Positions 88 through 3,954 of a DNA stretch of 32,512 bases are shown piece by piece. Position 1 is the first letter of the stretch. Each line of letters starts with the position of its first letter. The DNA is from Akkermansiaceae bacterium (GTDB taxonomy: Bacteria > Verrucomicrobiota > Verrucomicrobiia > Verrucomicrobiales > Akkermansiaceae). Both the position numbers and the translations under genes were made by a program. The notes below the pieces were generated by a model. That model had not been told where the DNA came from and did no database searches. It saw only the letters and a list, made by a program, of their open reading frames with translations. The DNA lies in assembly GCA_029253285.1 (NCBI GenBank), contig JAQWZU010000108.1:1-32512 (forward strand), in the 5' to 3' direction.

Positions 88-801
88 TTAGAAAGAAAAG
101 GAAACAGATGCACCACCGATGACACCGTCTGCAGCGTTAACGCCGATACGCTTGTCCTCACCCTCGATGTATGAAACATAAGGAGAGAAGGTAATGGCAT
201 CGCTAACGGCATAGTCGAGAGAGATGGTAGCAGAAGCGTAAACTTCACCGTCATCATTCGAGTAACCACCAGCGCCTTCATCAAGCACATAGCCATAAGC
301 GACTCCGAAGTTCGCAGTAAGCTTGTCGCTTACCTCTTGGGAAAACCCAATTGTACCTTCGAGGAGAACCTGATCGTCAAGAATACCATCAGTTCCGAAG
401 AACACGGTAAGTCCGAGATCAACGCAAGCCTGCTGGGTCGAGAATCCGAGGTAAACCTCAGCATCATCAGCTGCTCCACCATCATAGGTGTAAACAGTGA
501 AACCAGCTGCAACAGAACCAATACCAAGATCTTTGCTCACAGCTGCGTAGATATCGAGTTCATCAACATTACCGTCTTCACCGTCAGGTGAGATGGACCA
601 GAGACCAGCGGACCAATCAAGGCCAGAGTCGCTGGAACCGGCAAAATCAAGACCATATTCATAGGCATCTTTTCCGAGCTCAACGCCGCGGTAGATGTAC
701 TCTGAATTATAGCCAACATGGAATTCCGATTCGATTTCAGCCTGTGCTTGGCCGAAAAACAGTCCGGAGGTAATTGCGATAATTGTGGATGTCTTTTTCA
801 T
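88..801 (-). CDS. TorF family putative porin (outer-membrane beta-barrel)
   Basis: About 237 residues. The start at 801 gives a clean signal peptide (MKKTSTIIAITSGLFFGQAQA), whereas the upstream in-frame ATG at 852 adds 17 residues without membrane character. The mature part has the TorF/Gcw_chp pattern: an opening segment with EFHVGYNSEYIYRGVE, then alternating polar and aromatic strands ending in a C-terminal phenylalanine (SVSFSF), as expected for an outer-membrane barrel. It follows an ammonium transporter gene in the same direction after 119 bases and has its own terminator. I recall this family near amt/PII genes in other bacteria, so a role in nitrogen compound uptake is plausible, but that is inference. 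The substrate cannot be read from the sequence. Confidence 0.8.
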   Translation of the reverse strand: MKKTSTIIAITSGLFFGQAQAEIESEFHVGYNSEYIYRGVELGKDAYEYGLDFAGSSDSGLDWSAGLWSISPDGEDGNVDELDIYAAVSKDLGIGSVAAGFTVYTYDGGAADDAEVYLGFSTQQACVDLGLTVFFGTDGILDDQVLLEGTIGFSQEVSDKLTANFGVAYGYVLDEGAGGYSNDDGEVYASATISLDYAVSDAITFSPYVSYIEGEDKRIGVNAADGVIGGASVSFSF

Positions 802-920
802 GACGCAGGGAACTAAGCAATTACCGTGCCAATGTGCAATACTTAGTTTCATCTAATTTTAAACTTTCCGAAATAATTTAGTGCAGATTGCAATGAAAAT
901 TTAAAAAAATTGGATGCTTA

Positions 921-2252
921 TTAATCCAGATTATACGCCGTTTCCCCGTGCTCGGCGGAGTCAAGCCCCTCAAACTCAGTGTCTTCGTCAACTCTCAGCC
1001 CCACAATTGCACGAGTGATGTAAACAATAATCACTGTCGCAACAGCGGACCAAATCACCGTAATCGCCAAAGATTTCAATTGAACAAGCAACTGCTCCAT
1101 AGCGGTGAAGGTCTCCCCCGTTGCGGGATTTTCGCCCAGTCCGACACCACCAAGGACGCCTTCAACCCCCAGAAATGCCACCATAATGGTTCCCATAATA
1201 CCACCGACCCCGTGAACAGCGAAAACATCGAGTGAGTCATCAATCTTCAACTTACTCTTCACAATGCCGCACATGAAGTAGCAGATCACACCAGCCATTG
1301 CTCCAATCACAATCGCCCCCATTGGGCCGACATTACCAGAGGCAGGTGTAATGGTCGCCAATCCAGCCACCATTCCCGTGGCGATTCCCACCACTCCGGT
1401 CTTACCAGTCTGAAGACGCTCAACAATGCACCAGACGATCGCTGCCGTAGCTGCCGAGAGATGCGTCACCAGCATCGTCAAACCGGCAGCCTCGCTTGCG
1501 CCACCCTGAGATCCTGCATTAAAGCCAAACCAACCGACCCAGAGCAAGGACGCTCCAATCATCACCAAACCCGGACTATGGGGAGGGTGTAACTGGGACG
1601 GGAATCCTTTCCGGGGACCAATCATTTTGGCCAGAACCAGAGCGGAAACACCCGCTGTGGCATGAACCACAATTCCACCGGCGAGATCAATCGCCCCCCA
1701 TTGCGCCATAATACCTCCACCCCAAACCCAATATACGGCCGGAGCATAAACCAAGATCAGCCACAGAGCGGTGAAGACCATGACCGCCGCGAATTTCATC
1801 CGCTCGACAAAAGCGCCCACAATCAACCCGGGTGTAATAATCGCAAAAGTCATCTGGAACATCACCATGACGGTCTCAGGGAAATCATTTCCCCAATCCC
1901 CTTCTCCCAGACCTTCCATGAAGAAGTGCCCGAATCCCCCGAGCCACTTCCCGCCGGTATTGTCAAAAGCCAAACTGTAAAGACCAATTGCCCACATCAC
2001 GGAAGCAAGCGCGGCAATGGCATAACAGTGCATCAGCACCGAAAGAACATTCTTGGCACGAACCAAGCCCCCATAGAAGAGAGCCAGACCAGGAAGAGTC
2101 ATTAAAAGGACCAAAACGGTCGCCGTGATCATCCAGGCCGTATTGCCGGTATCCGTGGGCACTTTTTCCGCAGCTTCAGCCGAAGCCATGCCCATTCCAG
2201 CAAGACCGACCAGCAGTCCTACTCCGATTTTACTGAGTATCTTTGTTCTCAT
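921..2252 (-). CDS. amtB: Ammonium transporter, Amt/MEP/Rh family (first copy)
   Basis: 443 residues, the usual length for bacterial AmtB including a cleavable N-terminal signal (about residues 1-27, ending MASAEAAE). Inner-membrane channel that moves ammonium into the cytoplasm. Family landmarks are visible: the TM1 stretch GLALFYGGLVRAKNVLS, the segment GAIDLAGGIVVHATAG carrying the conserved Asp and first pore His, WFGFNAGSQGG, and DVFAVHGVGGIMGT carrying the second pore His. The C-terminal tail (GLRVDEDTEFEGLDSAEHGETAY) is the conserved cytoplasmic tail that contacts PII proteins. No glnK/PII gene is adjacent. It is divergent from a second ammonium transporter and has a possible sigma-54 promoter 53 bases upstream. 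Confidence 0.95.
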   Translation of the reverse strand: MRTKILSKIGVGLLVGLAGMGMASAEAAEKVPTDTGNTAWMITATVLVLLMTLPGLALFYGGLVRAKNVLSVLMHCYAIAALASVMWAIGLYSLAFDNTGGKWLGGFGHFFMEGLGEGDWGNDFPETVMVMFQMTFAIITPGLIVGAFVERMKFAAVMVFTALWLILVYAPAVYWVWGGGIMAQWGAIDLAGGIVVHATAGVSALVLAKMIGPRKGFPSQLHPPHSPGLVMIGASLLWVGWFGFNAGSQGGASEAAGLTMLVTHLSAATAAIVWCIVERLQTGKTGVVGIATGMVAGLATITPASGNVGPMGAIVIGAMAGVICYFMCGIVKSKLKIDDSLDVFAVHGVGGIMGTIMVAFLGVEGVLGGVGLGENPATGETFTAMEQLLVQLKSLAITVIWSAVATVIIVYITRAIVGLRVDEDTEFEGLDSAEHGETAYNLD

Positions 2253-2304
2253 TTAATTGTGAATCCTTGATTTAACGGCATTTCCGCCTCTCAAGTCCTC
2301 CAAA

Positions 2305-2320
2305 AGCATGATTCATGCCA
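2305..2320 (-). promoter_or_regulatory. Possible sigma-54 promoter of the leftward ammonium transporter
   Basis: On the minus strand TGGCATGAATCATGCT has the invariant GG and GC at the spacing required for -24/-12 elements (consensus TGGCAC-N5-TTGCW, two mismatches: T for C in the -24 and A for T in the -12). The -12 end lies about 52 bases before the start codon. Caution: the site coincides with the perfect palindrome GCATGA-T-TCATGC (2306-2318), so part of the match could reflect an operator instead. Confidence 0.5.
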
Positions 2321-2345
2321 ACCATGAATTTCACTCATCCCCCTC

Positions 2346-2361
2346 TGGCACACCCCTTGCT
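2346..2361 (+). promoter_or_regulatory. Sigma-54 (-24/-12) promoter of the rightward ammonium transporter
   Basis: TGGCACACCCCTTGCT matches the sigma-54 consensus TGGCAC-N5-TTGCW at every specified base. The expected transcript start, about 12 bases past the -12 element, falls near 2372. That excludes the in-frame ATG at 2308 and fixes the start codon of the following gene at 2398. Control by RpoN with an NtrC-type activator under nitrogen limitation is what is known for such genes; no rpoN or ntrC gene is in this window. Confidence 0.85.
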
Positions 2362-2397
2362 AAAACAGGTGTTGGTCAAATTCAAAGAACCAAAACC

Positions 2398-3954
2398 ATG
2401 ACAAAAACTACACGATACTCGATGAAGACGGTCCTCATGGGACTTATCTTCTCAATGATCGCCGGATTCGGCACCGCCTCAGCTGCGCAGGATTATGCCA
2501 CTCTCATTGCCCAAGCTGAGGAGTTCGCTAAAGCGACTGAAGAAGCAGGTGACGATGAAGACAAGGCCCCCAGCTGGGATACTTACGTCACCGACGATGC
2601 CGACACCGCCTGGGCCACCATAACCGATGCCATTGGTGACGAGGAGGCCGGCGAAGCCAATTCCGAACTAATGACTTCGGCTTCTCCCGAGGCCATTCAG
2701 GCAATTTACGATAATGTCTGGGCCAACACCAAGGCTTTGACACCTTGGCTGGTTCACAACATCTGGGTTCTCATAGCAGCCTTCCTCGTGTTCCTTATGC
2801 ACCTTGGCTTCTGCTCTCTTGAATCTGGTCTTTGTCAGAAAAAGAACGTGGTCAACATTCTCTTCAAGAACTGCTGGATCATCGCAACCGGTATTCTCAC
2901 CTATTACTTCTGGGGATTTAACGCCCACTACCCTGGCTTTGCCGAGGACAGCGCAGGCTTCTTCGCCGCTGGCTCAGTCGCTTCCTACGGACCATCCGAA
3001 CTCCTTCTGATGGCTACCAACCTTTATCACCCATCATACACTTGGTGGACAGACTTCATCTTCCAGGCCATGTTTGCTGCCACCGCGGCCACCATCGTCT
3101 CCGGAGCAGTTGCCGAGCGCGTCAAGCTCACCTCCTTCATGATCTTCGCCGTAATCCTTGTTGGAATCGCCTACCCATGGGTCGGTTCATGGCATTGGGG
3201 TGGCGGATGGCTCTCCGGATTGAGCAACGGTGGATTCTACGACTTCGCCGGATCAACAGTGGTTCACGCCTTCGGTGGATTTGCCGCTCTCGCCTGCGTC
3301 ATGGTTCTCGGAGCCCGCAAAGGCAAGTATACCGCTGAAGGCACCAAGCCCATCCTTGGTCACAGCATGCCTCTCGCTACTATCGGCGTGTTTCTCCTCT
3401 TCTTCGGATGGTTTGGATTCAACGGTGGATCTGTTCTCGCTGCCGAACCGCATCTCGTTTCCCTCGTGATCGTTGCGACATCACTCGCCGCCGTCGGTGG
3501 TGCTATCGGAGCCATCGCTACCGGCTGGATCTGCCTCAAGAAGCCGGATCTCTCCATGGCCCTCAACGGGTTCCTCGCCGGACTCGTTGGCATCACCGCC
3601 GGTCCTGACGTCATCTCACCAACTTGGTCAATCGTTGTTGGCCTCATCGCCGGTGTTCTGGTTGTCTTCTCTATCCTCTTCTTCGACAAGATCAAGATCG
3701 ACGACCCTGTCGGTGCGATCTCGGTTCACGGAGTTTGTGGAATCTGGGGAACCCTCGCCGTAGGAATCTTCAGCGCAGATCACAGCATTGTCACTCAGCT
3801 CATCGGTTGTGTCTCCGTCTGCGCCTTCGCCTTCGTCTTCTCTTACGCAGTCTTCTACGCCTTGAAGGTCACTATGGGTGTCCGGGTCGACGAAGAGGAA
3901 GAGTACGAAGGACTCGACGTTGCCGAACACGGTTCACCTGCCTACACAGGCTAA
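2398..3954 (+). CDS. Ammonium transporter, Amt family, with acidic N-terminal extension (second copy)
   Basis: 518 residues from the ATG at 2398; the sigma-54 promoter at 2346 rules out the longer frame from 2308. After a signal peptide ending near TASAAQD there are roughly 100 acidic residues (many Asp/Glu, e.g. EEAGDDEDKAPSWD) before the first core membrane helix, a part absent from the first copy, so it is probably periplasmic. The Amt core follows: LESGLCQKKNVVNILFKN, YDFAGSTVVHAFGG with Asp and pore His, FFGWFGFNGGS, and GAISVHGVCGIWGT with the second pore His. It ends in the PII-contact type tail GVRVDEEEEYEGLDVAEHG. Both pore histidines are kept, so it should transport ammonium; a sensor role for the extended form is speculation. 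A strong terminator follows. Confidence 0.95.
   Translation: MTKTTRYSMKTVLMGLIFSMIAGFGTASAAQDYATLIAQAEEFAKATEEAGDDEDKAPSWDTYVTDDADTAWATITDAIGDEEAGEANSELMTSASPEAIQAIYDNVWANTKALTPWLVHNIWVLIAAFLVFLMHLGFCSLESGLCQKKNVVNILFKNCWIIATGILTYYFWGFNAHYPGFAEDSAGFFAAGSVASYGPSELLLMATNLYHPSYTWWTDFIFQAMFAATAATIVSGAVAERVKLTSFMIFAVILVGIAYPWVGSWHWGGGWLSGLSNGGFYDFAGSTVVHAFGGFAALACVMVLGARKGKYTAEGTKPILGHSMPLATIGVFLLFFGWFGFNGGSVLAAEPHLVSLVIVATSLAAVGGAIGAIATGWICLKKPDLSMALNGFLAGLVGITAGPDVISPTWSIVVGLIAGVLVVFSILFFDKIKIDDPVGAISVHGVCGIWGTLAVGIFSADHSIVTQLIGCVSVCAFAFVFSYAVFYALKVTMGVRVDEEEEYEGLDVAEHGSPAYTG

Follow-up and report, generated by a model that had tools for sequence, protein, structure and literature searches.

How two ammonium transporter genes, transcribed away from each other across a gap of 145 bases, are controlled is the question raised by this locus, which lies in a 32,512-nucleotide stretch of DNA (hereafter the window) from an Akkermansiaceae genome of 4.3 Mb (G000; 224 contigs, 97% complete). 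In Proteobacteria, amtB (glnK-amtB) is controlled by sigma-54 and NtrC. The original prediction, made from the letters of the window alone, placed back-to-back sigma-54 promoters in the gap and proposed that a palindrome over one of them might tune the two genes apart. Having compared the locus with its relatives, we favor, with modest confidence, a nitrogen-limitation promoter hub in which a dimeric regulator, more likely a sigma-54 activator, would act on both amt promoters through a shared dyad.

The amt locus and its sigma-54 boxes

Both open reading frames (ORFs) flanking the gap belong to the Amt family (Pfam PF00909). Each contains a full-length Ammonium_transp domain above the cut-off, which places it in Amt/Rh, and both pore histidine motifs were seen by eye in the alignments. 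They are two different Amt proteins, as had been predicted, and their nearest solved chains differ: AmtB (9cs5, 1.6e-94) for Amt1 and 6eu6 (1.6e-67) for Amt2, which reached AmtB chains at only ~1e-40 and scored higher against 6eu6 and 8qj3 than against them. These two chains are presumably Amt sensor proteins; Amt2, in contrast, terminates with its Amt domain, which begins at residue 123 after an N-terminal extension with a signal-like start (by eye). The placement of the amt2 start codon matches that in relatives, and the protein scored 423.6 bits against the marine Amt subtype TIGR03644, below the cut-off of 514. No P-II gene lies beside the pair, the flanking ORFs being a porin-like gene and a RecG-like gene; the only P-II match that the genome has at E ≤ 1e-30 is on contig C49, so the locus is not a glnK-amtB operon.

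The gap holds two outward-pointing sigma-54 boxes, 25 bases apart, and both the full-consensus rightward box and the weaker leftward one occupy the positions originally assigned to them (Table 1). They have the GG at -24, the GC at -12, the TGGCAY..TGCW core and the N4 spacing of sigma-54 promoters, with predicted starts at ~2372 for amt2 (leader ~26 nt) and ~2294 for amt1 (leader ~42 nt). Since the sigma-54 weight matrix was approximate, bit scores are to be read only relative to each other; when the 145-base gap was shuffled 20,000 times with its dinucleotide composition kept, a score of at least 18.6 bits on either strand was reached in three shuffles and at least 14.8 bits in 46, and none had at least 14.8 bits on both strands. 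In the 32.5 kb window, the three top N4-spaced sites were the two boxes of the gap and a third box near the porin-like gene, with the next site at 13.1 bits.

Table 1. Features of the amt locus, in window coordinates.
Feature	Position	Strand	Description
Porin-like gene	88..801	-	Gcw_chp outer-membrane porin-like protein, 237 aa, signal-like start; PF09694 28.9 bits, cut-off 24
Third sigma-54 box TGGCACGGTAATTGCT	816..831	-	19.7 bits; upstream of porin-like gene; missed by the original prediction
amt1	921..2252	-	AmtB-like ammonium transporter, 443 aa; PF00909 2.4e-108; TIGR00836 above cut-off
Left sigma-54 box TGGCATGAATCATGCT (amt1)	2305..2320	-	2 mismatches to TGGCACR-N4-TTGCW; 14.8 bits
Palindrome GCATGATTCATGC	2306..2318		By-product of left sigma-54 box, not separately conserved
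Central dyad ATGAAT-TTC-ACTCAT	2324..2338		Proposed shared regulator site, 15 bp; missed by the original prediction
Right sigma-54 box TGGCACACCCCTTGCT (amt2)	2346..2361	+	0 mismatches to TGGCACR-N4-TTGCW; 18.6 bits
amt2	2398..3954	+	Second Amt, divergent from amt1, 518 aa; PF00909 8.2e-108

With up to three mismatches allowed, the pattern was no more frequent in the window than expected by chance (57 matches versus 66.7), and the evidence must therefore rest on position and conservation. Over-representation across the genome was likewise rejected as proof, because the strict pattern TGGCAYRNNNNWTGCW barely exceeded its reversed-pattern control (seven matches versus six). Five of the seven strict matches precede amt1, amt2, the porin-like gene, P-II and a glutamine synthetase gene of GlnII type (372 bits, below the model cut-off of 500), three of them sitting within the same 1.6 kb of the window; the other two are inside a coding region and at a place with no clear target.

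We take the Gcw_chp protein behind the third box to be TorF-like; its PF09694 scan started at a longer ORF start (852), and it had no meaningful NCBIfam match. The box of this gene is also found in relatives. Its predicted leader is only ~4 nt (window 801-831), and the 14-15 nt from box to ATG are kept in L071, L089, L090, L091, L092, L098 and L100, so the porin-like message may be almost leaderless.

Conservation was assessed in a set of 116 genomes, 111 of which had a match to Amt2. Sixty Amt2-relative stretches, 80 further loci and the window yielded 142 upstream regions, or 123 after the removal of near-identical ones. A box of at least 13 bits with a spacer of 4 was present upstream in 108 of these 123 amt2-type loci, and spacers of 2, 3, 5 and 6 gave boxes in 0, 1, 1 and 0 of them; the 15 loci without such a box include L096, which is a piece of a broken hit, as well as L063 and L065, both from small genomes (1.5-1.6 Mb). 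Thirty of the 123 loci are divergent amt1/amt2 pairs, 16 in the genus and 14 elsewhere (seven in other genera and seven on contigs not placed to genus). The amt2 stretches of the genus came from 20 of its 27 genomes and comprise three single amt2 genes and 17 divergent pairs, 16 of which were left after removal of the near-identical L050. Both boxes are kept in all 16 divergent loci of the genus, with 41 bp from start to start in 14 and 40 bp in two, which bears out the very compact shared control region that had been proposed. In the other divergent loci, the right box is present in 14/14 and both boxes in 11/14, at 54-81 bp. An amt pair with two divergent sigma-54 promoters is thus confirmed as a real observation.

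Of the 27 genus genomes, 23 yielded a P-II gene and 22 a glutamine synthetase gene. A box precedes P-II in each of the 22 loci with upstream sequence (lowest score 13.4 bits; one further locus lies at the edge of its contig) and glutamine synthetase in 22/22 (lowest score 12.7 bits). In seven of the 22 P-II promoters (L230-L233, L235, L236, L249), a TTTCTNNTAGAA stretch was also seen by eye immediately ahead of the -24 box, possibly the site of another regulator.

The promoter hub seems to have outlived a gene that it serves. Compared with the closest relatives (G002 and G005), the DNA is ~87-90% identical over amt1 and the promoters up to 2362-2363, and the identity drops directly behind the right sigma-54 box (window 2362-3954). 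Amt1 is 96-97% identical to that of these two genomes, but the Amt2 domain only 62-63%; the same domain is 76-80% identical to that of G014, G020, G023 and G026, whose Amt1 is only 80-84% identical. The sharpness of the break behind the right box suggests that amt2 was exchanged or replaced in this lineage. In the amt2 leader (window 2362-2397), many relatives in the genus share a conserved stretch resembling GTTCAACNNGAACCCA at the predicted start; the window's own copy of it is degenerate (both by eye).

The genome search that had been suggested alongside the promoters found one rpoN (TIGR02395 above cut-off) and two clear sigma-54 response-regulator activators with receiver domains, one of which (L002) lies directly behind a histidine kinase-like ORF. 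Their AAA+ loops read GAFTGA in one and GSFTGA in the other (by eye). The expectation of an NtrC-type activator held in part: both are NtrC-like, but their 402.8 and 382.5 bits fall below the NtrC equivalog cut-off of TIGR01818 (NCBIfam, 558.6 bits). Either of them may work like NtrC despite its score. Six more PF00158 matches, at 20-29 bits, were just over the Pfam cut-off, and two PF00158 matches were left at E 1e-20.

A dyad between the promoters and at other genes

The central dyad spans approximately -30 to -44 of amt1 and -34 to -48 of amt2. All 16 divergent loci of the genus match ATGAAT-NNN-ATTCAT with at most two mismatches, a degree of similarity found in 450 of 320,000 shuffled gaps, and 12 of them read exactly ATGAAT-NNN-AYTCAT. 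In these loci the dyad keeps a distance of 3 bp to the left box and 7 bp to the right one (6 bp in two loci). Mean pairwise identity across the 16 was 0.98 and 0.86 for the dyad arms and 0.88 and 0.89 for the boxes, with 0.51 for the dyad centre, 0.40 and 0.37 for the spacers and 0.32 and 0.44 for the leaders. The 14 other divergent loci have no dyad (at least four mismatches), and their promoters, where both are present, are further apart; the tight 25-base packing and the dyad therefore go together. Of the single amt2 genes in the genus, that of G010 has the dyad 6 bp from the box, and those of G018 and G024 have none at up to one mismatch. Sigma-54 enhancers usually lie at -80 to -150; the dyad, centred at ~-37 and ~-41, is closer to the starts and adjoins or slightly enters the usual polymerase footprint.

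In its own genome, ATGAATNNNAYTCAT occurs at three places (none for the control): in the amt hub, 8 bp before the sigma-54-like box of rpoN, and ~104 bp upstream of a gene for a CysJ-like flavoprotein, where there is no sigma-54 box. Allowing one mismatch gives ten places; at the seven other than amt, rpoN and the CysJ-like gene, no sigma-54 box within 200 bp scores above 10 bits, and these places look like chance and were rejected as regulon members. Of 30 rpoN loci inspected by eye, 19, our genome included, could be read upstream of the gene, and 18 of these show a sigma-54-like box there (the exception is L167). Among the 24 genus genomes with a recognised rpoN, four have the dyad ahead of it (our own, G002, G017 and G001), and one of the four lacks an adjacent clean box.

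Across the 27 genus genomes, ATGARTNNNAYTCAT was found at 49 places, versus 10 for the reversed control. A box of at least 12 bits pointing away from the dyad lies within 220 bp of 24 of the 46 distinct dyads that could be inspected, when ~0.02 would be expected per place and ~1 in total; the association of the dyad with sigma-54 promoters is seen at the level of sequence. The 24 comprise 12 amt hubs, one single amt2, three rpoN loci, six porin-like copies, one reductase and one contig-end site, and they are not independent, being orthologous groups of only six kinds of place. The dyad-to-box distances are 3-8 bp, 28 bp (a nitrite/sulfite reductase gene) and 123-124 bp (the six porin-like copies, which are one gene region). 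The other 22 dyads have no nearby box, one recurrent place before a secreted protein among them. At that place (L128, L137, L138, L180, L184, L192), the dyad lies ~40 bp before the gene, whose product starts with ISDDFND, and no box points towards it. Elsewhere (L182, 1262-1490), a porin-like gene is preceded by the sigma-54-like box TGGCACAAAAAACGCT twice in tandem, in identical copies 20 bp apart, and the dyad lies upstream.

In the order as a whole, a dyad with TGGCAY within 2-12 bp was found in 11 of 288 genomes and three of 50 genera, and the control gave 0 in each genome. Two further genera (g10 and g11) have the dyad before a single amt1 (G056, G266) or amt2 (G036) with the same spacings of 3 and 7 bp; the dyad of G056 is part of a longer, perfect palindrome of 27 bases that runs as far as the -24 box, and that of G266 has arms lengthened to 12 bases.

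Candidate readings of the dyad

In the mechanism that we propose, sigma-54 RNA polymerase would wait at the divergent amt1 and amt2 promoters, and a third promoter would serve the porin-like gene. Upon nitrogen limitation, an NtrC-family activator would open these promoters together with those of P-II and glutamine synthetase elsewhere. A dimeric regulator bound to the 15-bp dyad, in the 25 bases between the promoters, would act on both amt genes and, in this species and a few relatives, also on rpoN, thereby feeding back on sigma-54. The packing of two promoters around a dyad kept in close relatives means that one regulator probably controls both amt genes. A dimeric nitrogen regulator is the most likely protein to bind the dyad, and it may be the sigma-54 activator itself; the nitrogen response, the binder and the sign of its effect are what we infer from these patterns.

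We consider this binder more likely to be a sigma-54 activator, using an enhancer site that is unusually close, than a separate repressor. The variable distances from dyad to box at other genes argue for an activator site, as expected of an enhancer. The dyad was not seen at the P-II, glutamine synthetase or porin-like promoters (the last in the window), though these have sigma-54 boxes; it is therefore not a general nitrogen enhancer. This, together with the dyads that have no box, argues for a separate regulator, and the activator is only slightly ahead.

The dyad would then be the operator of a repressor or co-regulator, distinct from any enhancer-binding protein, that hinders or helps sigma-54 polymerase, and we regard this as a possible, less probable explanation. 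Lying 3 bp from the amt1 box and 7 bp from that of amt2, it could allow such a regulator to set unequal levels. The dyad adjoins -24 boxes at 3, 6-7 and 8 bp, hence in no fixed helical phase, and it also occurs at a gene without a sigma-54 box, both of which fit this explanation, as does its absence from other nitrogen-related sigma-54 promoters. The dyads 123-124 bp upstream at the porin-like copies and 28 bp upstream at the nitrite/sulfite reductase gene are, however, awkward for a steric repressor, and no candidate regulator gene was recognised next to the dyads of the genus, judging from ORF starts and a family scan of some ORFs.

That only the two sigma-54 promoters matter appears improbable to us; on this view the activator would act from coding-region sites or while free in solution, and the dyad would be conserved by accident or serve as a structural spacer. 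The 11 of 14 divergent loci outside the genus set that keep both boxes without a dyad are in line with it, as is the glutamine synthetase box, which follows so closely behind the upstream gene that little space is left for a non-coding enhancer; but conservation in the dyad arms is similar to that in the boxes, and the adjacent spacers are near random.

As for the palindrome, GCATGATTCATGC is indeed present and coincides with the left box, but it is exact in only 3 of the 16 genus loci, and its inner pairs are complementary in 11, 4 and 6 of them, the outer GCA/TGC pairs, complementary in 16/16, being promoter bases; conservation rules it out as a separate regulatory site, and we give very little credence to its being the tuning site. 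The idea that a palindromic element tunes the amt pair survives for a different element, the central dyad.

Returning to the activator, a more far-reaching proposal is that it works from a single dyad between back-to-back promoters without the usual looping distance and that the feedback on rpoN makes a self-amplifying nitrogen switch, which we put forward as speculative and rather unlikely. If the dyad is an activator site, the usual distance rule for sigma-54 activation would be challenged. The dyad is in any case a defined DNA site that can be used to fish out its binding protein, and the locus suggests, for a Verrucomicrobiota lineage, a candidate regulon that can be tested: amt1, amt2, the porin-like gene, P-II, glutamine synthetase and rpoN.

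Comparison with known systems

According to the accessible part of one survey (PMC12316311), the ammonia permease COG0004, P-II and glutamine synthetase are sigma-54 targets mainly in Pseudomonadota, and sigma-54 autoregulation of rpoN is inferred for Verrucomicrobiia and other classes. The boxes before rpoN in our readable loci agree with the autoregulation described there; unlike it, the rpoN box of this species and a few relatives is preceded by a dyad of the amt type. For a verrucomicrobial methanotroph, the accessible text of PMC3404531 reports amtB three- to fourfold up in N2-fixing cells and lists NtrB and several NtrC-family genes. In the open-licence literature, to the extent that its texts were accessible, we found little on sigma-54 nitrogen control in this phylum and no description of this promoter pair or of the dyad.

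The dyad resembles the E. coli NtrC enhancer site and the ArgR box in being of the kind bound by dimers, and its arms resemble TGAAT; unlike either, it has three bases between the arms and a different sequence. In E. coli, the NtrC core is GCAC-N-GTGC, the ArgR half-site is TGAAT, and the ARG box has four bases between its arms. ArgR was set aside as the binder, since the arms in the 16 genus loci are three bases apart and those of its box (TGAAT-N4-ATTCA) four.

As in Proteobacteria, amt, P-II and glutamine synthetase lie behind predicted sigma-54 promoters, and the genome contains NtrC-family activators. In contrast to the glnK-amtB arrangement, two amt genes diverge here, P-II is elsewhere, a porin-like gene lies alongside, a dyad is common to both promoters, and the activators fall short of the NtrC cut-off. 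That sigma-54 controls amt is textbook knowledge; the compact double promoter centred on a dyad is the new part.
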